Assembly (NCBI GenBank): GCA_937914965.1
Contig: CALGIY010000208.1
Coordinates: 1-10,979 of the forward strand
DNA length: 10,979 bases
Reading direction: 5' to 3'
Source of the DNA: an uncultured Thermoanaerobacteraceae bacterium
GTDB lineage: Bacteria > Bacillota > DSM-12270 > Thermacetogeniales > Thermacetogeniaceae
Part shown: piece after piece, positions 193-10,979 of the stretch
How the letters are laid out: each line of letters starts with the position of its first letter
Position numbering within the stretch: position 1 is the first letter of the stretch
The notes under the pieces: generated by a model
Databases searched by the model: none
The model's input: only the letters and a program-made list of their open reading frames with translations
What the model was told of the DNA's origin: nothing
Made by a program: the position numbers and the translations under genes

Positions 193-2244
193 TTATTGAA
201 CCCCTTCTGACACAGGAAGATAAAAGGAGATTTTGGTGCCTACTCCATAGGTGCTTTCTAGTTGGATTCTTCCGTTGTGAAGCTCAATCAGCTTTTTGGA
301 AAGAGGAAGTCCAAGTCCTACCCCTTGGAAGAGACGCTTATAGGGGTCTTCGCACTGATAAAATTCATTGAAGATGTTTTTTTGGTGCTCTTCTTTGATG
401 CCGATTCCGGTGTCTGTAACGCTGACTCCGATTTCATCTCCTTTTCTAAAGGCTTCGATTGTTATTGTGCCGCCCTCTGTCGTAAACTTGGTCGCATTGG
501 AGAGCAGGTTGGAAAGTACCTGTTTGATCCGGATGGGGTCAGCCAAGATCTGTGGAAGTTTTTCCGGAATTTTTATGATCAATTCCAGGTTATTATCTTT
601 TGCCTGTGGTCTCATAATGGTCACCACAGAGTTTATGATATCAATGATGGAGATCTTCTGTTTTTCAATGGTAATTTTGTCGCTTTCGATACAGGATATA
701 TCCAGGATATCTTCGATAATCTGCAAAAGGTGTTTGGCGCTGTCAAGTACGATGGCCACATAGTCCTTCTGGGTTTGGTTTAAGGCACCATAGAGACCAT
801 CATAGAGCATTTCGGAAAAGCCGATGATCGAGTGTAGAGGTGTTCGTAGTTCGTGGCTCATGTTTGCCAGAAACTGGTTTTTGATATGGTTGAGGGCTTT
901 TAATTCCTTAACTGCTTTCTCTAATTCCCTTGTTCTATCGCTGACTCTCAATTCCAGCTTGCTGTTGGCATCCTGGAGTTGTTCGGTCAGGAATTGAAGT
1001 GCGACCCGATCCTGTTCGAGCTGCTCCAGATAAGCATTGGCTTCTTTGCTCTTTTGGTAAAGGGTTGTGGTCATACCTTGAAAAGAGTTGTGAAGGTTAT
1101 TTATTTCAGAGATTCTGGACTCTTTGACCTCCTCCAGTTTGCTGATATGTTCTTTGGTGATTGTCTTGGCATCAGAGATCTCTTGGGCTAGTCTGCTCCA
1201 AGCTGTGATGGGAAGGGAAACTTTACTGGTAATAATGGATGCCCCAATCAAAGCAATTCCAGAGCAGAGCAGCAGGCACAAGAGCAGGGAAAAAAAGGCA
1301 TCCCGTTTGATTGTTGTGAGCCCGTGGGAGGGAACTCCTACACTCAGGGCAGCTACAACCTTACCTTTGGAGTTAAGGATCGGTTCTGCTGCTACCAGGT
1401 GAATTTCGTTGATTTCGATCTGGGCACTCCCGTTATAGCGGTTCCCTTTTCGGGTAGCTTCCCTCAAAGGTTGTGACTGTTTCATTCCGACAAAATCTAA
1501 AGTCTGTGGTCCTTTAATGTTGGCAACTACACGAACACCCTGCACTCCGATAGAAAGATAGGAGTTGGGGACGATTGTTGAATAGGACCGGGGGATGGAT
1601 GTGTTGTTGTTGACGATCTGACCTCCTATCAGACACCCGATTGTTCTGTTTGCCGTGTCTTTGACAGGAACTCCTGTCAGCTGTACAAGGGTGTATGGGA
1701 GATAGTGCTGAGACTTTTGGGACGAGTTTTCGATGATTGCCACATGTGTTTGTTGTACAAGTTCTGGTGGAAAAGCAGTCATTTCGCCGAGCTTAAAGAC
1801 TTCTGATGTTGAAGTTGGCTCCCCATTTTGCAAAATACTTTCGGCAAATTGCGTCAAATCGTTTGGCAGTTTTTGCCCAGGCTCCAGATTTGTCGCCAGG
1901 ATAGCTCTATTGCTGTTGATAATTGCCCAGAAATCGTGCTTCTTTTTCTCCTGCATTATTCTAATGATCTTAGACTGTTGATCCTGGCTTTGGAGCAGTG
2001 TTCTGGTACCTTCTGCTGAGGCAAGAGCTTCAAGAAATGCATTTTCCTGCACGAAAAAGTGGTTGTATTCCTGCCAGCCAATTGTGAGCGATCTGTCAAG
2101 CAGGTTTTCGGTATTGAGTTTAAGGCGTGAGAAGGTGATAATTGTGGCCAATGCCAGGAACAAGCACAGGGCAAATAAAAGTATGCAGAAAAATGATTTA
2201 AGAAGCACAGAGTGCAGGGACGTTGTTTTAATTTTTCTCAACAA
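193..2244 (-). CDS. Membrane sensor histidine kinase with Cache-type extracellular domain
   Basis: 683-residue sensor kinase. TM1 spans about residues 13-38 and TM2 about 316-340. Between them lie about 275 extracellular residues whose end (EIHLVAAEPILNSKGKVVAA, followed by LSVGVP) is typical of Cache small-molecule sensor domains. A HAMP-like linker (about 341-395, Pro344) and a coiled coil (about 396-455) lead to HisKA with the phospho-acceptor His464 in MSHELRTPL. The ATPase has an N box (Asn579-Asn583), G1 DTGIGI (611-616) and G2 GVGLGL (641-646). Translation appears to start at TTG (2244-2242), preceded by GAGGG, and overlaps the end of the upstream regulator gene by 17 bases, suggesting translational coupling. 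The downstream receiver gene is the likely phosphotransfer partner. The ligand is unknown; the divergent decarboxylase locus makes an aromatic acid a reasonable guess (inference). Confidence 0.93.
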   Translation of the reverse strand: MLRKIKTTSLHSVLLKSFFCILLFALCLFLALATIITFSRLKLNTENLLDRSLTIGWQEYNHFFVQENAFLEALASAEGTRTLLQSQDQQSKIIRIMQEKKKHDFWAIINSNRAILATNLEPGQKLPNDLTQFAESILQNGEPTSTSEVFKLGEMTAFPPELVQQTHVAIIENSSQKSQHYLPYTLVQLTGVPVKDTANRTIGCLIGGQIVNNNTSIPRSYSTIVPNSYLSIGVQGVRVVANIKGPQTLDFVGMKQSQPLREATRKGNRYNGSAQIEINEIHLVAAEPILNSKGKVVAALSVGVPSHGLTTIKRDAFFSLLLCLLLCSGIALIGASIITSKVSLPITAWSRLAQEISDAKTITKEHISKLEEVKESRISEINNLHNSFQGMTTTLYQKSKEANAYLEQLEQDRVALQFLTEQLQDANSKLELRVSDRTRELEKAVKELKALNHIKNQFLANMSHELRTPLHSIIGFSEMLYDGLYGALNQTQKDYVAIVLDSAKHLLQIIEDILDISCIESDKITIEKQKISIIDIINSVVTIMRPQAKDNNLELIIKIPEKLPQILADPIRIKQVLSNLLSNATKFTTEGGTITIEAFRKGDEIGVSVTDTGIGIKEEHQKNIFNEFYQCEDPYKRLFQGVGLGLPLSKKLIELHNGRIQLESTYGVGTKISFYLPVSEGVQ

Positions 2245-2896
2245 GTTGATCCCTCTTTACCAGGTTGCTATTTAGAGCAAATAAAGCAGCTTCTGTTCTG
2301 CTGGTAACATCCAGTTTGTACAGGACTTGGGAGACATGCGCTTTTACGGTATTGGGACTGATATACAGCTTGGATGCGATCATTTTGTTAGTATAACCCA
2401 TTCCAAGAAAACGGAGGACATCGATTTCCCGTGGTGTCAAATTGCTCAGGGTATTGGATGTGAGTATCTTTTCTGGTATGGGTTTGTCGTTTCCTTTGAG
2501 ATCAGTGTTAACAGTGATCGGCAGACGGAAAATTGCTGTAACTAGATCTAATTCATCTTCGATTGAAGACAGGTCTTTTGTTCTGCCGCCAAGTAGATAG
2601 ATCTCTTTATGCGCTAATTGTATATTTGACTTAAGGCCAAAGACATATAGCCCTTGAAAACATTTACTGATCACGACTTCATCCCTGGCACGGGCCTGTC
2701 TGATGAGCTGTTTGATTTCGGAAAGGCAGCTGCTCTGCTGGCCGGGATCATTGCAGGTAAGTGGCAGCCGGGATGGGATGGTGATTTCCTCTCCCTGGCT
2801 GTTCACAAGCACCAGACAGAGATTGGTTTTTTGGGCCAGGAGATCCTGCAGATACTGAAGCTTGGTGAGAAGTTCGAGAGAAAGGTCAGATACCAT
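2228..2896 (-). CDS. LuxR-type transcriptional regulator with PocR-like N-terminal sensory domain
   Basis: 222 residues. The C-terminal part (about 152-209: LTPREIDVLRFLGMGYTNKM, then PNTVKAHVSQVLYKL) is a clear LuxR/GerE helix-turn-helix. The N-terminal part has no receiver signature. It resembles the PocR sensory domain in its VNSQGEEI strand, in three spaced cysteines (Cys48, Cys57, Cys79) with the third in KCFQGL, and in a final YLLGGRTKD. PocR-family domains are thought to bind small organic ligands, and the cysteines could hold a metal or be redox sensitive (inference). The ATG at 2896 is preceded by AGGAGG. It is the first gene of a leftward operon with the kinase and response regulator, and it diverges from the hpd locus, so control of hpd and of itself is plausible. 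The LuxR domain is certain; the PocR assignment is moderately sure. Confidence 0.85.
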   Translation of the reverse strand: MVSDLSLELLTKLQYLQDLLAQKTNLCLVLVNSQGEEITIPSRLPLTCNDPGQQSSCLSEIKQLIRQARARDEVVISKCFQGLYVFGLKSNIQLAHKEIYLLGGRTKDLSSIEDELDLVTAIFRLPITVNTDLKGNDKPIPEKILTSNTLSNLTPREIDVLRFLGMGYTNKMIASKLYISPNTVKAHVSQVLYKLDVTSRTEAALFALNSNLVKRDQLVEKN

Positions 2897-3370: not shown

Positions 3371-3380
3371 TTACTTGTGT

Positions 3381-6092
3381 ATGCCTAAGAAACTAGCAGA
3401 TATCCTTGAGGAAAAGGGTATGCCGATCGACTTCCAGTATGGCAGTTCCGCACCTGAAGAGATGGTTGATCGCGAAGTGCAAAAAGAACCGGACTCGCGT
3501 CCGAATAAGCTTTTGGATCTTTACTTTGATACCCTCTCTTCAGCAACAGTTGAATTTCCTTACTGGTACACACGGAAATGGAAAGAGCTCGATGCGGAAG
3601 TGCCTGTAGTTCGAAGGGCAATAGCACTGAAGTATGCGTTTTCCCATGTGACACCCACAATTTTCCCGGGTGAGAAACTGGTTATGGGCAGGGCACGCTA
3701 TTACCGCGGTTCCTTCCCGATGCCGTGGGAGTCTGAAGGCTATTTCATGGCCAAGGAAGATGAGCTGTACCAGGATGCGCTCAAGAAGGGCAGTGTCAGC
3801 TCAGGTGAAGTTTCTCAGTTCGGAGCCGGTGGCGGCAATGTTACCAAGAGCTTTGGAAATGTTGTTTCAATTGCCGGTAAGTTTGGCATGCGTCAGGAAG
3901 AAGTTCCTGCCCTGATCCGAGTTGCACGTGAGTGGGTAGGTAAATCAGTTGATGACCTCCGGTACGAATATGAGAAAATGATGCCGGACTATGACTTAAA
4001 AGAGAACATCATGAAAAGTGTCATCTGTATGTTTGAGTCTGGATTTACCCTTCCTCTCGGCCGTGAGGTAATAAACTACTACTATCCGCTGCAGTATGGT
4101 TTTGACGGCCTTATTGAGATCTGTAAAGAGCGCGCATCAGAGGTTGCTGGGAACGCTGATGGCGATGGGATTAGCGGCATGAATCGCCTCTACTTTTATA
4201 AGGCAGCTGCCCTCGTCCTTGAAGGTGTTCAGACCTGGATTCTGAACTACGCCAAGGAGGCCCATAGGCTCGCTGCAATGGAGAAAGACTCCACTCAAAA
4301 GGCAGAATATGAGGAAATTGCCGAATGCTTGGAGCAGATCGCTCACAAGCAGCCGCGCACTTTCCGTGAAGCCCTGCAGTTGATCTATACAGTACACATT
4401 GCTGTTCTCAATGAGGATGCAATTTCTGGAATGTCTCCTGGCCGGGTTGGACAGGTGCTCTCCCCTTGGTTTGAACAGGATATCGAGGCCGAGCGGATCA
4501 CTGAAGAAGAGGTTATTGAGCTTCTCGAGTTGCACCGGGTCAAGATGACCTGTATCGACTGCTTTGCCTCCGCGGGTGTTGTGGGCGGCGTGCTCTCCGG
4601 CAATACATTCAACAACCTGAGTATGGGCGGACTGACCAGAGATGGGCGCTCAGCGGCGAACAGGTTGGAGATCCTGATTATGGAGGCTGGTATCAGGTGT
4701 GCCACTCCACAGCCGACCTTGTCAGTGCTCTATGATGAGAAGTTGCCTGATGAGTTCTTGCTCAAGGCGATCGAGTGCAACAAGACAGGTACCGGTTATC
4801 CTGCCTGGATGAATAATCAGAGCGCAATAGAGTTTCTGATGTGGCAGTATGGCAGGGAAGGGATGACCATTGAAGAAGCCCGCGCCGTTGCTATCGGTGG
4901 TTGTCTAGAGACATCTCCCTGTGCCTGGCATGAACTCACACTGAACGGGAAGGAATATGTGGTCCCTGGTGGTGCTGGTCAGCCGACCTCTGTTGGCGTT
5001 CACTTCCTCGCCAATCCTAAGATTCTGGAGTGTGCCCTATTTAACGGCTATGACCACCGTACCGAGACGCAGGTCTATCCTCCCCATAACAAAAAACTGG
5101 AAACCTATGAAGAGCTTTGGGAAGTCTACAAGCAGTACTACGAAATGACAGTAGATGTGCTCAGCCGCGCCAACAATATCCAGCATGATATCTGGCGTAA
5201 GAACAATATGTCTATTTTCCACTCTCTGTTGAAGCCAGACTGCTTGGCGAAGGGGCATCATATCGGCGACATGGGTATCCGGTATAACGGCACCTACAAT
5301 GTGGAGAGCTGTGGTACCGCGAATATGGTAAACTCACTGGCTGCTCTCAGGAAGCTGGTCTACGATGACAAGAAGTATACCCTGGAGCAGATGAAAGAAG
5401 CCATCCTCGACAACTTTGGATTCAAAGACGCAGAAGAGGTTGGCAGCTACTCCCTGGCAAGTCAGGAGAAGAAGGGTAGTGGAGAGACGTGGGATGAGAT
5501 CCACAGCAACTGTCTGCTTGCTCCGAAGCAGGGTAATGCTGACCCTTATGTCGACTCCATTCTCAAGGAGTATGAGGACTGGTTCTGCGAGATGTGTACC
5601 GAGCACGAGTCTCTCTATGCCAAGCCTATGTACGCCTGCCAGATCTCTGTATCCACACACGGTGCGCAGGGTGCTGTTACTCTGGCGACACCGGATGGGC
5701 GTCTTGCAGGAACTACTTATGCGGATGCCTCTATGTCTCCCTATCCCGGCACCGACCGGAACGGGCCCTATGCTGTATTTGCATCAGCAACTGTTTGGGA
5801 CCAGACCAAATCTCAGAACTCTCAGCTCAATATGAAGCTACACCCAACTGCCATCAAGGGAGCAGAGGGTTCCCGCAAGTTGCTTGAACTGACAAGGTCA
5901 TATCTGAGGAACGGCGGTTTCCACATCCAGTACAATATCGTCGACTCCAAGGTCCTACGTGACGCACAGGCTCATCCGGAGAATTATAGAGAACTGATGG
6001 TGCGTGTCGCTGGATTTACTCAGTACTGGGTCGAGATCGGTAAAGCGATTCAGGATGAGGTTATTGCCAGAACCGAGTATGAGACTGTTTAA
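3381..6092 (+). CDS. hpdB: 4-hydroxyphenylacetate decarboxylase, glycyl radical (large) subunit
   Basis: Catalyses 4-hydroxyphenylacetate to p-cresol plus CO2 by radical chemistry in the cytoplasm. The 903 residues align along their whole length with HpdB as I recall it, for example the blocks [40 protein letters not shown] and [20 protein letters not shown]. The active-site thiyl Cys508 and Glu510 lie in GGCLE, and the radical Gly878 lies in RVAGFTQYW. His541 and Glu642 fall exactly where the clostridial enzyme has His536 and Glu637, which contact the substrate hydroxyl. Every catalytic position is shifted by +5, so the spacing is fully conserved. The hydroxyl-contacting Glu and the adjacent small-subunit gene argue for 4-hydroxyphenylacetate rather than the phenylacetate or indoleacetate decarboxylases. 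The intact C-terminal radical loop means it should be activatable by HpdA. Confidence 0.95.
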
Positions 6093-6116
6093 ACGACTAA
6101 ATAAGGAGGGAGAACA

Positions 6117-6386
6117 GTGAGTAAAAAGGATTTAAAACACCATGACTGCAGGAATTTTGCACCGGTTGATGTTGCCAAGGGGATTTGTCACCTGAGCAAG
6201 AAAATGGTTTCCACAGATTCTCCTGTCTGCGAAAATTTTGATGAGCTGTCAAAATGCAGGAACTGCGCCAACTATACCGCAGACAAGAACGAGAAAACCA
6301 TGGGCACTTGTGAAGCTGAAAAAACAAAGCCCTGGACATTTGAAGATTTAATTGCTGTAAACTGCGAAATGTACAACGCCAAATAA
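6117..6386 (+). CDS. hpdC: 4-hydroxyphenylacetate decarboxylase, small iron-sulfur subunit
   Basis: 89 residues starting at GTG, with AAGGAGGG 6 bases upstream and 24 bases after the hpdB stop. It forms the hetero-octamer with HpdB and carries two [4Fe-4S] clusters, which are thought to help control radical stability and assembly. All eight ligands can be placed. His8, Cys11, Cys24 and Cys38 match the unusual His/3-Cys cluster. Cys47, Cys50, Cys65 and Cys83 match the second. The phrases NFAPVDVAKGICHLSK and KCRNCANY closely resemble the clostridial protein as I recall it. This subunit is specific to the hydroxyphenylacetate enzyme; it is absent from the indoleacetate decarboxylase cluster as I remember it. 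Confidence 0.95.
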   Translation: MSKKDLKHHDCRNFAPVDVAKGICHLSKKMVSTDSPVCENFDELSKCRNCANYTADKNEKTMGTCEAEKTKPWTFEDLIAVNCEMYNAK

Positions 6387-6397
6387 ATCATATAAAC

Positions 6398-6433
6398 ATC
6401 CCCCTTGCGGCGGATGCTGCAAGGGGGATTTAA
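6398..6433 (+). terminator. Hairpin between hpdC and the transporter (weak terminator or mRNA-processing/stabilising stem)
   Basis: ATCCCCCTTGC (6398-6408) pairs perfectly with GCAAGGGGGAT (6419-6429) around a 10-base loop. Only TTTAATT follows, so termination is probably partial. It would give more hpdBC message than transporter message, or protect the 3' end of hpdBC. The transporter ribosome binding site lies about 25 bases further on. Confidence 0.7.
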
Positions 6434-6466
6434 TTACTGCAAACTGTTAAAGGGGGTTGGAGATAA

Positions 6467-7771
6467 GTGGATGACAATGTTAGAGCGAAACGAATTGGTT
6501 ATATGGTTATCGCCGCAGCATGGCTAGCTGTCTTCTGTCTGTTTGGCTACAGAGCGACTTTCTCTGTTCTCCTGGGGCCAATGCAGGAAAGCATGAATTG
6601 GACTGTCTCGCAGACCTCGCTCGGCTATTCTTTGATGATGACCATTTATGCCATAACAGCATTTTTCAGCGGTATGCTTATTGACCGTTATGGCACTAAA
6701 CCGGCATACTTTTTAGGAGCGATATTTGGTGCTTTGGGCTTTTATATAACCAGTTATGTTAATGGTTATGTTGCTTACCTGGCAGCTTACTCAATTTTTG
6801 CCGGAATCGGTACAGGGATGCTCTGGGTTTCATCGACAGTATCTGTGAGGAAATGGTATGTCGGCAGGGCTTATGCCACGATGTGGGGGTTGGCCTTTAT
6901 GGGGGCACCGATGGCTCAGGTGCTCTTGAGTCTGGGTGCCAAGCAAATTCTGGTCACCATGGATTGGCGGATCGCCATGAGGGTTTTGGCACTTGTTGTT
7001 TTTGTTGCTCTTGTTATTGCTACCCTGATTGCCAAGAAGAACCCGGAAGATTACGGTTTTAAGCCGTTCGGTTTAGAAACGGCAAAAGACGGACAAAAGA
7101 AAGAGTCTGAACGCCACTGGGAGCTGGGTGAGGCCTTTAAACAGTATCCTATTTGGGGTGTAATCCTGGCTTTCTTAACCAGTATGGTAGCTGAGTTCCT
7201 CATCTGGACTCAGGTAGTCATGTTCTGGGTCAATGATGTTAAACTGTCTCTCAGTACTTCTACTAACCTTTATGTTGCTATCGGTATCGCAGGGATCTTT
7301 ACAATGCCCTTGCTGGGTATTGTTGCCGACAAAGTTGTTGGTTTAGTGAACCACGAAGCCAAGGGGCGGAAGATCATGCTTATCTTTGCTCCAATAGTTG
7401 GTGTTGTGGCCTGTATTGTGCTCATGATGACCAAGCAGTCCCTAGTCTTTGGTGTGGCGGCCTGTATCCTCTTTGCAATTTACTGGGCGATTGAGCCAGG
7501 TGGTGCTGCTGGTTATGCTGGTGCTATTTTTGGCGGCAAGTCTCTGGGTAAGATTTGGGGATTTGCAACCCTCATCGTGATGAGTATCGGCCCTGCTTTC
7601 GGGAGCTTCATGGGAGGCTACCTCTTCGATGTTTCCGGCAGTTACTACAACTCCATTATTTTTGCTCTTTGCGCCTTTGCGGCATCGATTGTTTTTGCTA
7701 TTACCCTGCCCTCGGAGATTAATTTCAAGGCGGAAGCTAAAGCCAAAACGGATAAGGCGATTGCTAGTTAA
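6467..7771 (+). CDS. MFS transporter, oxalate/formate- or monocarboxylate-antiporter-like
   Basis: 434 residues with about 12 membrane segments, starting GYMVIAAAWLAVFCLFGYRA. The MFS motif A is seen as GMLIDRYGTKP (69-79), and VRKWYVGRAYATMWGLAF (127-144) resembles the loop of the monocarboxylate/oxalate:formate antiporter group. A central cytoplasmic loop of polar residues (about 190-228) splits the two six-helix halves. The GTG start is preceded by GGAG with short spacing; an ATG at 6471 is out of frame. Its position between the small subunit and the activase suggests uptake of 4-hydroxyphenylacetate, possibly in exchange for a product, or export of an aromatic product (inference). The exact substrate cannot be read from the sequence. 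Confidence 0.9.
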   Translation: MDDNVRAKRIGYMVIAAAWLAVFCLFGYRATFSVLLGPMQESMNWTVSQTSLGYSLMMTIYAITAFFSGMLIDRYGTKPAYFLGAIFGALGFYITSYVNGYVAYLAAYSIFAGIGTGMLWVSSTVSVRKWYVGRAYATMWGLAFMGAPMAQVLLSLGAKQILVTMDWRIAMRVLALVVFVALVIATLIAKKNPEDYGFKPFGLETAKDGQKKESERHWELGEAFKQYPIWGVILAFLTSMVAEFLIWTQVVMFWVNDVKLSLSTSTNLYVAIGIAGIFTMPLLGIVADKVVGLVNHEAKGRKIMLIFAPIVGVVACIVLMMTKQSLVFGVAACILFAIYWAIEPGGAAGYAGAIFGGKSLGKIWGFATLIVMSIGPAFGSFMGGYLFDVSGSYYNSIIFALCAFAASIVFAITLPSEINFKAEAKAKTDKAIAS

Positions 7772-7782
7772 ATACCTGTTTG

Positions 7783-7820
7783 TTGGGGTGGTGCAGCCAA
7801 CTTCCACCACCCCAATTTTT
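7783..7820 (+). terminator. Strong intrinsic terminator after the transporter
   Basis: TTGGGGTGGTG (7783-7793) pairs perfectly with CACCACCCCAA (7805-7815) around an 11-base loop, followed by five T (7816-7820). It lies 11 bases after the transporter stop and about 107 bases before the activase start. The activase must therefore be expressed by read-through or from its own promoter. I find no convincing -35/-10 pair in 7821-7927. Confidence 0.88.
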
Positions 7821-7927
7821 AAAAAGAAAAGTTTGATTGGACACCCGGATTTAACGGAGTGCTGTGCAGTTCCATCCGAACCGAGCAGGGTGAAAATATA
7901 CCAGAATCCAGAATGGAGTTGAGTATT

Positions 7928-8878
7928 ATGCAGGAGAAAAAAGGACTGGTATTTGATGTGCAGGGTTACTCTGTCCATGATGGACCAGGCTGTCGGAGTT
8001 TGGTTTTTTTGAGCGGCTGTCCCCTGCGCTGTGAATGGTGTGCTAACCCTGAGGGACAGGTGATCAAGCAGCAAGTGATGCACCAGTTACAAAAATGTAA
8101 GTATGAGGAGCGCAGCTGCCGGCGCTGTATCTCAGCCTGTCCGCACAACGCCATTAGTGAAAGTGGTGACTCTGAAAAACCGCTTCTTATAGATAGGAAA
8201 AAATGCCGGAAATGCACAACCTATGACTGCACAAAGGCATGTATCTATGAATCCTTGGAGCTTTCTGGAAAATGGATGACTGTGAACCAGTTGATGGCTG
8301 TGATCGAGCGTGACCGGAGGTTCTGGGGAGATGGTGGAGGGGTGACCTTTACTGGTGGGGAGCCTTTTATGCAAAAGGAGTTTTTGACTGCTGTCCTCAA
8401 GAAATGCAAGGATGCCTTTATCCATACCGCTGTTGAAACCAGCGCTCATGTGGATACAGCGTCTTTTTTGAATGCCTTTCAATACCTTGATTTTGCTTTT
8501 ACCGATATCAAACATATGGACCCGGAGAAACATCTAGAGGGTATCGGGGTGAACAATAAACTTATTCTAAAGAATATTGCTGCTCTGGCTACCTCTGATT
8601 GGTCAGGGGTTCTGGTTATCAGGATTCCTGTTATCGAGGGTTTCAATGATTCCGATGAAAACATTACTGCCACTGCAGAGTTTTTGAACAAGATCGGGTT
8701 GGATATTGTGAACATTTTACCATTCCACAGGCTGGGGGATTCTAAATATAATCAGCTCGGAATGAGCTATAAATATGCAGATCATAAGGAAACTCCTGAT
8801 GAAGTAATGCAGCGTGTGCAAAAGATTTTCCTTGACCATGATATCGGCTGCTTTATCGGGTCTAATACCCCTTTTTAA
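7928..8878 (+). CDS. hpdA: 4-hydroxyphenylacetate decarboxylase activating enzyme (radical SAM)
   Basis: Generates the glycyl radical at Gly878 of HpdB using S-adenosylmethionine. It has 316 residues, the same length as C. difficile HpdA as recalled. The radical-SAM cluster motif CPLRCEWC has Cys31, Cys35 and Cys38. Two ferredoxin-like sets follow (Cys57, Cys64, Cys67, Cys71 and Cys93, Cys96, Cys101, Cys105), the insert typical of glycyl radical activases. TGGEP (142-146) is the SAM-binding motif, and the blocks FAFTDIKHMD and PVIEGFNDSDENI also match. The ATG at 7928 is chosen because GGAG (7915-7918) precedes it at 9 bases and the conserved start LVFDVQGYSVHDGPG follows at once. The open frame back to 7859 lacks a ribosome binding site and resembles nothing. 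A terminator separates it from the transporter gene. Confidence 0.95.
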   Translation: MQEKKGLVFDVQGYSVHDGPGCRSLVFLSGCPLRCEWCANPEGQVIKQQVMHQLQKCKYEERSCRRCISACPHNAISESGDSEKPLLIDRKKCRKCTTYDCTKACIYESLELSGKWMTVNQLMAVIERDRRFWGDGGGVTFTGGEPFMQKEFLTAVLKKCKDAFIHTAVETSAHVDTASFLNAFQYLDFAFTDIKHMDPEKHLEGIGVNNKLILKNIAALATSDWSGVLVIRIPVIEGFNDSDENITATAEFLNKIGLDIVNILPFHRLGDSKYNQLGMSYKYADHKETPDEVMQRVQKIFLDHDIGCFIGSNTPF

Positions 8879-9404: not shown

Positions 9405-9600
9405 TGATCGGAACAGGTTAAGGGAAGCCGGTGCAAATCCGGTGCGGTCCCGCCACTGTAAAGAGGATGGCCCTGCACGACGCCACTGTCCGCAAGGATG
9501 GGAAGGCGCAGGGGCTAGATGAACCTAAGCCAGGAAACCTTCCTGTTATCCGTCGGTCACGCTGCTCTACGCGAGATAGGGAGGTGGACTTTTTGTTTGA
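9405..9600 (+). ncRNA. Cobalamin riboswitch
   Basis: The aptamer core is recognisable from AAGGGAAGCCGGTGCAAATC, GCGGTCCCGCCACTGTAAAG and the B12 box AGCCAGGAAACC at 9528-9539. An outer stem CGGAACAG (9409-9416) pairs with CTGTTaTCCG (9543-9552), and inner pairing of AGGTT (9415-9419) with AACCT (9522-9526) is available. The stretch 9553-9620 is the expression platform and carries further small hairpins, including GAACAAACTTGTTC around 9599-9612. Cobalamin binding should favour the terminator at 9621-9652 and lower expression of the gene at 9700. Confidence 0.93.
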
Positions 9601-9620
9601 ACAAACTTGTTCTGACAGAT

Positions 9621-9652
9621 AACCCCGGTCCCCAGTAGGGCCGGGGTTTTTT
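9621..9652 (+). terminator. Terminator hairpin of the cobalamin riboswitch
   Basis: AACCCCGG (9621-9628) pairs with CCGGGGTT (9641-9648) and the stem continues with CCC/GGG after a one-base bulge. Six T follow (9647-9652). It lies between the aptamer and the next gene, so it is the likely switch-controlled stop. Confidence 0.88.
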
Positions 9653-9699
9653 AGTGCACAATAGATGGGTTATTTCATTAACTAAGGGGAGGTTCTGTT

Positions 9700-10979
9700 A
9701 TGATTCATTACAGGAAAAAGGGTATTGCACTATTACTGACAGTCTGTTTCTTGTTGACAATGGTTGCGCCTGGGTTTGCTGCAGGAACAGGGGCTACAGG
9801 CAATACGCTGCAGGATGCCAGGGATGGGATTGTAGGTTATTATTTAAATCACAAGACCACTTTGGATAGTTGGGAAGAGGTAGTGGCCTTGCGGGAGGCT
9901 GGTCAGGATGTGGCTAGAGCTCCATGGATACTACCTGACTGGGGAATAAATCAACTTGATGAGAATTCACAGCCAAATGATTATGTTGGAATAATCCTTG
10001 GCATGCTGGCCGCTGGTCAGGACCCGGCAAATACTGATGGCGGGAACCTGGTAGAAAAGTTGGCTGCAATGCAGAAGAAAGATGGAAGTTATAGTGAATG
10101 GCTTAACCAGAACATTTGGCCCATTATTACTTTGGATAAAGTAGGTGGGAGTTACGATACCGCCAAAGCCATAGAATACCTCTTGGCACAGCAGAAGATG
10201 GACGGTGGATTTGGTCTCGGAGATGACAGTGACCCAGATTTTACTGGGCAGGCGCTTATGGCCCTGGCTCCTCACACCGATATCGACGGGGTTGCTGAAG
10301 CTATTAATAGAGCCAAAGAGTGTCTGAAGAATATGCAACTTGATGACGGAGGGTTTGCCAGTTGGGGTGCTGAAAACCCGGAATCTGCGGCTGCTGTAAC
10401 CCAGGGACTGCTGGCTTGTGGGGAAGATATCACCGCTGATACTTGGCAAAAGAACGGCAAAACCATGATCGATGCCCTCTTTGCATTTCAACTGGAGGAC
10501 GGGTCATTTGCCCACGAGATAGGTGGTGCCAGTGACAATATAGCAACCCAAAAATCCTTGCTGGCGGTTGCAGATATGGTAACAGCGGGGGTTTCCTATA
10601 ATGTTATTACAGGCAAAAACTATTCCGTGTACAGTGAGGCCAAAGTAAGGGTTCGGGTTGAAGGTGCTGTCAACACTTTGGCTGATAAAACGGTGACTGT
10701 TACCGGCACTGCTTTGGATGCATTGAAGGCTGCGGTGGGTGATGCTAATGTAGGTGCTCCTGGTGGGTTTATCAAGAGCATCCTGGGAGAGAGCGGGCAA
10801 GACGGGGTTGCAGAGGGCACCAATACCAGTTGGATGTACTATGTCATCAGAGATGGATCTATCGAACAGGGAGCGTTTTCTGAAGGTGCTGGAGACTATA
10901 ATGTCCGGGATGAGGATCAGGTTATTTTCTATAACGGTGCAATGGACAGTACATGGGCACCGAAGACATTCTTCCCGGT
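9700..10979 (+). CDS. Secreted transcobalamin-like protein: alpha/alpha-toroid repeats plus DUF4430-type domain (partial, continues beyond window end)
   Basis: 426 codons remain open to the window edge. The start ATG follows AGGGGAGG by 7 bases. Residues 1-28 are a signal peptide (MIHYRKKGIA, a hydrophobic run, cleavage near GFAA). Residues about 38-300 contain terpenoid-cyclase-like repeats with four QxxDGxF-type motifs: QKKDGSY (125-131), QKMDGGF (165-171), QLDDGGF (213-219) and QLEDGSF (264-270), each followed by an Ala/Leu-rich helix such as TGQALMALA. Residues about 310-426 (SWMYYVIRDG, AGDYNVRDEDQVIFYNG) match the transcobalamin-like C-terminal family (DUF4430). The same toroid-plus-beta architecture makes up animal intrinsic factor and transcobalamin. 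Together with the cobalamin riboswitch this suggests an extracellular or surface cobalamin-binding protein for B12 uptake. Cobalamin binding itself is inference. A C-terminal anchor or further repeats may lie outside the window. Confidence 0.85.
   Translation, partial: MIHYRKKGIALLLTVCFLLTMVAPGFAAGTGATGNTLQDARDGIVGYYLNHKTTLDSWEEVVALREAGQDVARAPWILPDWGINQLDENSQPNDYVGIILGMLAAGQDPANTDGGNLVEKLAAMQKKDGSYSEWLNQNIWPIITLDKVGGSYDTAKAIEYLLAQQKMDGGFGLGDDSDPDFTGQALMALAPHTDIDGVAEAINRAKECLKNMQLDDGGFASWGAENPESAAAVTQGLLACGEDITADTWQKNGKTMIDALFAFQLEDGSFAHEIGGASDNIATQKSLLAVADMVTAGVSYNVITGKNYSVYSEAKVRVRVEGAVNTLADKTVTVTGTALDALKAAVGDANVGAPGGFIKSILGESGQDGVAEGTNTSWMYYVIRDGSIEQGAFSEGAGDYNVRDEDQVIFYNGAMDSTWAPKTFFP

Follow-up and report, generated by a model that had tools for sequence, protein, structure and literature searches.

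The window analysed here is the whole of one contig (C208, 10,979 bases) in the draft genome of an uncultured Thermoanaerobacteraceae bacterium (2.0 Mb, 411 contigs, 92% complete), and it ends within a forward-strand gene (9700–10977) whose secreted product shares the two-domain plan of the animal vitamin B12 carriers. This product is probably a wall-anchored, transcobalamin-like protein that captures cobamides and feeds them to a CbrT-type energy-coupling factor (ECF) importer, the binding and the hand-over being steps that we infer. A sequence-only reading of the window had proposed a surface B12-capture protein, with BtuCDF-type and ECF transporters named as the importers to look for beside it. 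Fold and profile searches, surface anchors, a conserved operon and a CbrT-like S component support that interpretation and extend it, the importer being of the second kind.

From its ATG start at 9700, the reading frame stays open for 426 residues to 10977, where the contig stops inside the gene and the 3′ end is missing; the gene was defined by its open reading frame (ORF), Pfam, a structural model and fold searches. A signal peptide (residues 1 to about 28, 9700–9783), judged by eye from the translation and modelled as a helix at residues 3–25, is followed by an alpha/alpha toroid (residues 34–300, 9799–10599) and then by a transcobalamin-type C-terminal beta domain, DUF4430 (residues 313–426, 10636–10977). 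Both domains pass their Pfam cut-offs narrowly, PF00432 for the toroid with 27.4 bits against 26.5 and PF14478 for DUF4430 with 25.6 against 23.8, and the two-domain plan read from the sequence stands. Four QxxDG(G/S)(F/Y) motifs begin at Q125, Q165, Q213 and Q264, the first ending with Y. After each motif, the homologue alignment shows a near-invariant or invariant residue (N136, D180, S229 and T283), and these four may lie along a single toroid face, the one at which animal carriers hold cobalamin. D178 and T182 are conserved as well.

With the whole-length model as query, the best PDB matches in a fold search are animal B12 carriers, aligned over both domains in the same order at 12–15% identity. 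The C-terminal domain alone again finds animal carriers as its best PDB matches, and a profile of that domain detects them at the sequence level. Another whole-model fold search returned toroid matches in all of its best 50 rows, with no B12 carrier among those 50, from which absence of the carriers is not implied. By sequence, the protein is not assigned to the animal family. The carriers' own Pfam profile, ‘Eukaryotic cobalamin-binding protein’, is absent among the four Pfam families that the window protein matches at E values up to 1. Animal cobalamin carriers have three conserved disulfides, and the available mature part of the window protein has two cysteines, too few for that set, to which the missing 3′ end could add. 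Taken together, the protein looks built to work like the animal carriers without family membership by sequence.

Ahead of the gene lies a cobalamin riboswitch aptamer (RF00174, 9398–9560, forward strand), which scores 96.5 bits in a covariance-model search against a gathering score of 31.5 and covers the whole model (1–189). In the interval between aptamer and gene, RNA folding places an intrinsic terminator (9621–9652, forward strand), a G+C-rich hairpin at approximately 9621–9648 followed by a U run. The 66-nucleotide fold has an energy of −25.7 kcal/mol, equalled in stability by 0 of 200 shuffles, and the hairpin is present in the minimum-free-energy and centroid structures, and also in a 263-nucleotide fold. 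These results confirm the riboswitch and terminator of the sequence-only reading. The genome has five cobalamin riboswitches in all. Three of the four besides the window's own precede cobT, cbiB and cbiM; beside the fourth, on contig C42, no B12 gene was recognised within the 1.5 kb available. Nine B12-binding domains in the genome score above cut-off, which fits a cobamide need of the host. PMC4285132 describes a riboswitch-led operon in Dehalobacter, comprising genes for a FepBCD/BtuCD-like transporter and CbiZ, that is strongly induced by corrinoid starvation.

The candidate importer is encoded on another contig of the same genome, C407, which starts within the 3′ part of a homologous gene whose product has an LPKTGG anchor and continues with genes for a small DUF4430 protein, EcfT, the fused EcfA-A′ and EcfS. 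Among the importer parts, PF02361 (EcfT) and TIGR04520 exceed their cut-offs and there are two ABC_tran stretches. Searched against the PDB, the C407 EcfS has a single good match, 6fnp_A (E = 2.4e-13; runner-up 0.33), and the EcfS of a Syntrophaceticus locus matches CbrT at E = 5.4e-13. Entry 6FNP is ECF-CbrT, an importer of cobalamin and cobinamide as reported in PMC5997447. The S component, EcfT and two ATPase halves suggest that the importer is a CbrT-type ECF transporter, with ATP-driven cobalamin uptake as the predicted function. EcfS and toroid are fused in one chain in 3 of 108 homologues (P0072, P0080 and P0094). The first coding stretch of C407 supplies the 32 final residues of a DUF4430 domain and, because these are only 56% identical to the window's, its start is not the same stretch as the window gene end. 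Only one toroid was found in the genome, and in two other genomes (G016 and G002) a single gene holds two DUF4430 domains in tandem, both of which disfavour a separate paralogue on C407. The likelier arrangement is one gene split by an assembly gap, and we infer that the operon continues from C208 to C407.

The arrangement recurs in relatives. The search set consisted of 101 genomes, the window's own included, 29 of which have a match to the window protein, and named genomes contributed a further 34 loci, of which five exactly duplicate others in the set. Operon gene families were defined by gene clusters and profiles built for this analysis. Usually the riboswitch comes first, followed by a large toroid/DUF4430 surface protein, a small secreted DUF4430 protein, in some cases another toroid protein, and then EcfT, fused EcfA-A′ and EcfS. 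EcfS lies on the same strand in 29 of 46 distinct loci, all selected for holding a relative of the window protein; its profile was made from 12 proteins of these same loci, which match by construction. Eight of the 17 loci lacking EcfS have less than 5 kb of downstream DNA, and nine have more and still no EcfS. The count leaves out L048, L049 and L084 (score filter) and the duplicates L053–L056 and L058, and retains near-duplicates (L072/L080).

A same-strand cobalamin riboswitch lies upstream in 27 of the 32 distinct loci scanned with Rfam, within 0.8 kb in 20 of them and at 3–5 kb in seven, where a further large ORF from that protein's cluster intervenes. Among the five loci without one, three have fewer than 200 bases upstream and two (L067 and L083) have more and still none. 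Named carriers of the riboswitch include Desulfotruncus, Anaerovirgula, Thermosyntropha, Paenibacillus, Sporosarcina and Filibacter. A count across the 101 genomes, independent of the chosen loci, puts at least 40 of 106 DUF4430 places within 6 kb downstream of a same-strand cobalamin riboswitch; with riboswitch strands flipped, none of the 106 passes. This count rests on 150 listed riboswitch places and excludes three of 109 DUF4430 places below cut-off. Adding nine riboswitches from the collected loci, of which one was in the list before, raises it to 52 of 106, a change in favour of our reading, so the lower figure is quoted. CbiZ, a corrinoid-salvage enzyme, adjoins the operon in three loci, one by Pfam (L040) and two by a profile made for this analysis (L038 and L060).

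Some loci and genomes depart from the usual pattern. Close to the riboswitch-led toroid/DUF4430 genes of L052, L072 and L074, no importer genes, ECF or other, were recognised. In Desulfotruncus alcoholivorax (L057, 9620–15694), the riboswitch is followed by a toroid/DUF4430 protein, EcfS, a toroid protein and, by eye, a CbiM-like gene, with no EcfT or EcfA adjoining. One 2.9-Mb genome (G011) matches the cobalamin riboswitch 22 times and DUF4430 13 times; for another (G018) the numbers are 15 and 7. One protein, P0020, starts like the window protein but has a YedE/YeeE-type membrane protein as its remainder; it is probably an assembly chimera.

Wall anchors are found in the homologues, LPXTG in near relatives and SLH in others, and together with the LPKTGG motif on C407 they fit the proposed surface location. 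The product of the second gene starts with a membrane segment, or in L045 by eye with a lipobox-like sequence, and can therefore sit between wall and membrane. In the mechanism that we propose, the large protein would be fixed in the wall by its LPXTG or SLH anchor and would grip a corrinoid outside the membrane, between the alpha/alpha toroid and the C-terminal beta domain. The simplest relay would pass the ligand from the wall protein, probably through the small membrane-tethered DUF4430 protein, to the CbrT-like EcfS and into the cytoplasm, with EcfS, EcfT and EcfA-A′ acting together as the transporter. Ample cobalamin would cause the riboswitch to stop transcription, and the system would be produced under B12 shortage.

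Several observations limit this reading. The sequence-only reading had suggested a fold comparison with intrinsic factor and transcobalamin, with a cobalamin-sized cleft between the domains as the sign to look for; the best matches and the domain order agree with these carriers but the orientation of the domains does not, as the model differs from holo carriers by a root-mean-square deviation of approximately 20–23. A search with the profile made from full alignment A1 shows no B12 carrier among the 60 of 69 PDB matches listed, and in that with the C-terminal-domain profile intrinsic factor ranks below two chains of nitrous-oxide reductase (E 0.026 and 0.036). The DUF4430 places beyond the riboswitch-linked ones include genuine DUF4430 genes elsewhere, and the domain is present in Lactococcus lactis outside a B12 context and without an RF00174 match; DUF4430 by itself is no proof of a B12 role. 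Finally, a chimeric contig end may be the source of approximately 50 C-terminal residues of the window protein. The final 155 bases (10825–10979, forward strand) are 100% identical to a contig of Thermacetogenium sp. UBA5472, as opposed to 63–78% for the remainder of the gene in 60-base steps, and the comparison suggests that this tract is likely a chimeric end, with recombination also possible. The two-domain plan does not depend on the tract, because full-length homologues carry the same plan.

The strongest alternative, which we nevertheless consider unlikely, is that the protein belongs to the B12 regulon but binds another ligand at the surface, such as a metal complex, a glycan or a cell-surface partner, and resembles transcobalamin in fold only. 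The occurrence of DUF4430 outside B12 contexts favours it, as do the sharing of the toroid fold with terpene cyclases, prenyltransferases, epimerases and lyases in the fold search and the title of a solved bacterial DUF4430 domain (3u7z), putative metal-binding protein. Against it, B12 carriers are the best matches for both domains in the same order, the adjoining transporter gene is CbrT-like, and CbiZ and the riboswitch form the context. A capture protein that does bind B12 but passes it to a BtuCDF-type ABC (ATP-binding cassette) importer is considerably less probable. FecCD permease genes occur at three places in the genome, a BtuF-type PF01497 domain shares a chain with the toroid in 12 of 108 homologues (P0070 and 11 others), and three riboswitch-led toroid loci, described above, lack ECF genes nearby; the fusions point to a possible role of toroids with another type of importer as well. 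However, the five cobalamin riboswitches found all lie on contigs other than the three with FecCD genes (C249, C71 and C79), a result tempered by the shortness of the contigs, and ECF genes come after the protein in relatives and after the homologous gene end on C407. It is scarcely credible that the protein is an exported enzyme of terpene cyclase or prenyltransferase-like type, placed under a cobalamin riboswitch by chance: squalene-hopene cyclase and drimenyl diphosphate synthase are the best toroid-only matches, but signal peptide, wall anchors, the B12-carrier-type C-terminal domain and the ECF operon disfavour it, and where class II terpene cyclases have their catalytic DxDD motif the window protein has D178-P-D180-F-T (column pattern DPDxTG in alignment A2), with the final Asp missing.

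By protein comparison, the closest named relatives of the host are Thermacetogenium sp. UBA5472 and Syntrophaceticus schinkii Sp3, in a comparison from which the records nearest the window's own were possibly excluded. Elsewhere in the window, a 4-hydroxyphenylacetate decarboxylase operon (3375–8878, forward strand) encodes a p-cresol-forming glycyl radical enzyme, with its large subunit and activase above cut-off (NCBIfam for the large subunit), its small subunit identified by Pfam, and a major facilitator superfamily (MFS) transporter. Divergent from it (193–2896, reverse strand), Pfam identifies a Cache-domain sensor histidine kinase and, carrying a PocR sensory domain, a LuxR-type regulator, a pair that possibly regulates the decarboxylase operon.

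Literature searches, with most subscription journals outside their coverage, turned up no description of this system. According to PMC5997447, it is the S component in the membrane that binds the vitamin in ECF transporters; here, a wall-anchored, riboswitch-controlled protein of transcobalamin fold seems to precede one. If this is true, DUF4430 and many Firmicutes surface proteins named only for prenyltransferase or squalene cyclase repeats gain a function, an explanation emerges of how thick-walled bacteria may gather scarce cobamides, and the origin of animal B12 carriers becomes testable.

The proposed system has likenesses among both bacterial and animal proteins. BtuF of BtuCDF, BtuB and BtuG of Gram-negative bacteria capture B12 before an importer carries it across the cytoplasmic membrane, as the window protein would, but their folds are unrelated to those of the window protein, and they differ from it in its Gram-positive wall anchoring and ECF importer. 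The importer resembles ECF-CbrT of Lactobacillus delbrueckii in having an EcfS homologous to CbrT and ECF-type energising genes. In that species, according to the accessible part of PMC5997447, which names no surface capture protein, CbrT is encoded within an nrdJ-cbrS-cbrT-pduO cluster and uses one ECF module in common with other S components, whereas in the operon described here the EcfT and EcfA-A′ genes adjoin EcfS. The 3u7z chain, RUMGNA_00854 of Ruminococcus gnavus, is a bacterial DUF4430 domain of 97 residues without a toroid.

As with transcobalamin, haptocorrin and intrinsic factor, the window protein is extracellular and has the carrier fold, a toroid followed by a beta domain. It differs from them in its low sequence identity, its modelled domain orientation and its cysteines, and the bacterial proteins are anchored in the wall or S-layer. 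The animal carriers serve receptor-mediated uptake, whereas the bacterial protein would serve an ECF importer. We suggest, tentatively and with somewhat less than even confidence, that wall-bound bacterial transcobalamin homologues form a whole class relaying cobamides into CbrT-type ECF importers, and that they share with the animal carriers a two-domain ancestor whose architecture pre-dates animals.
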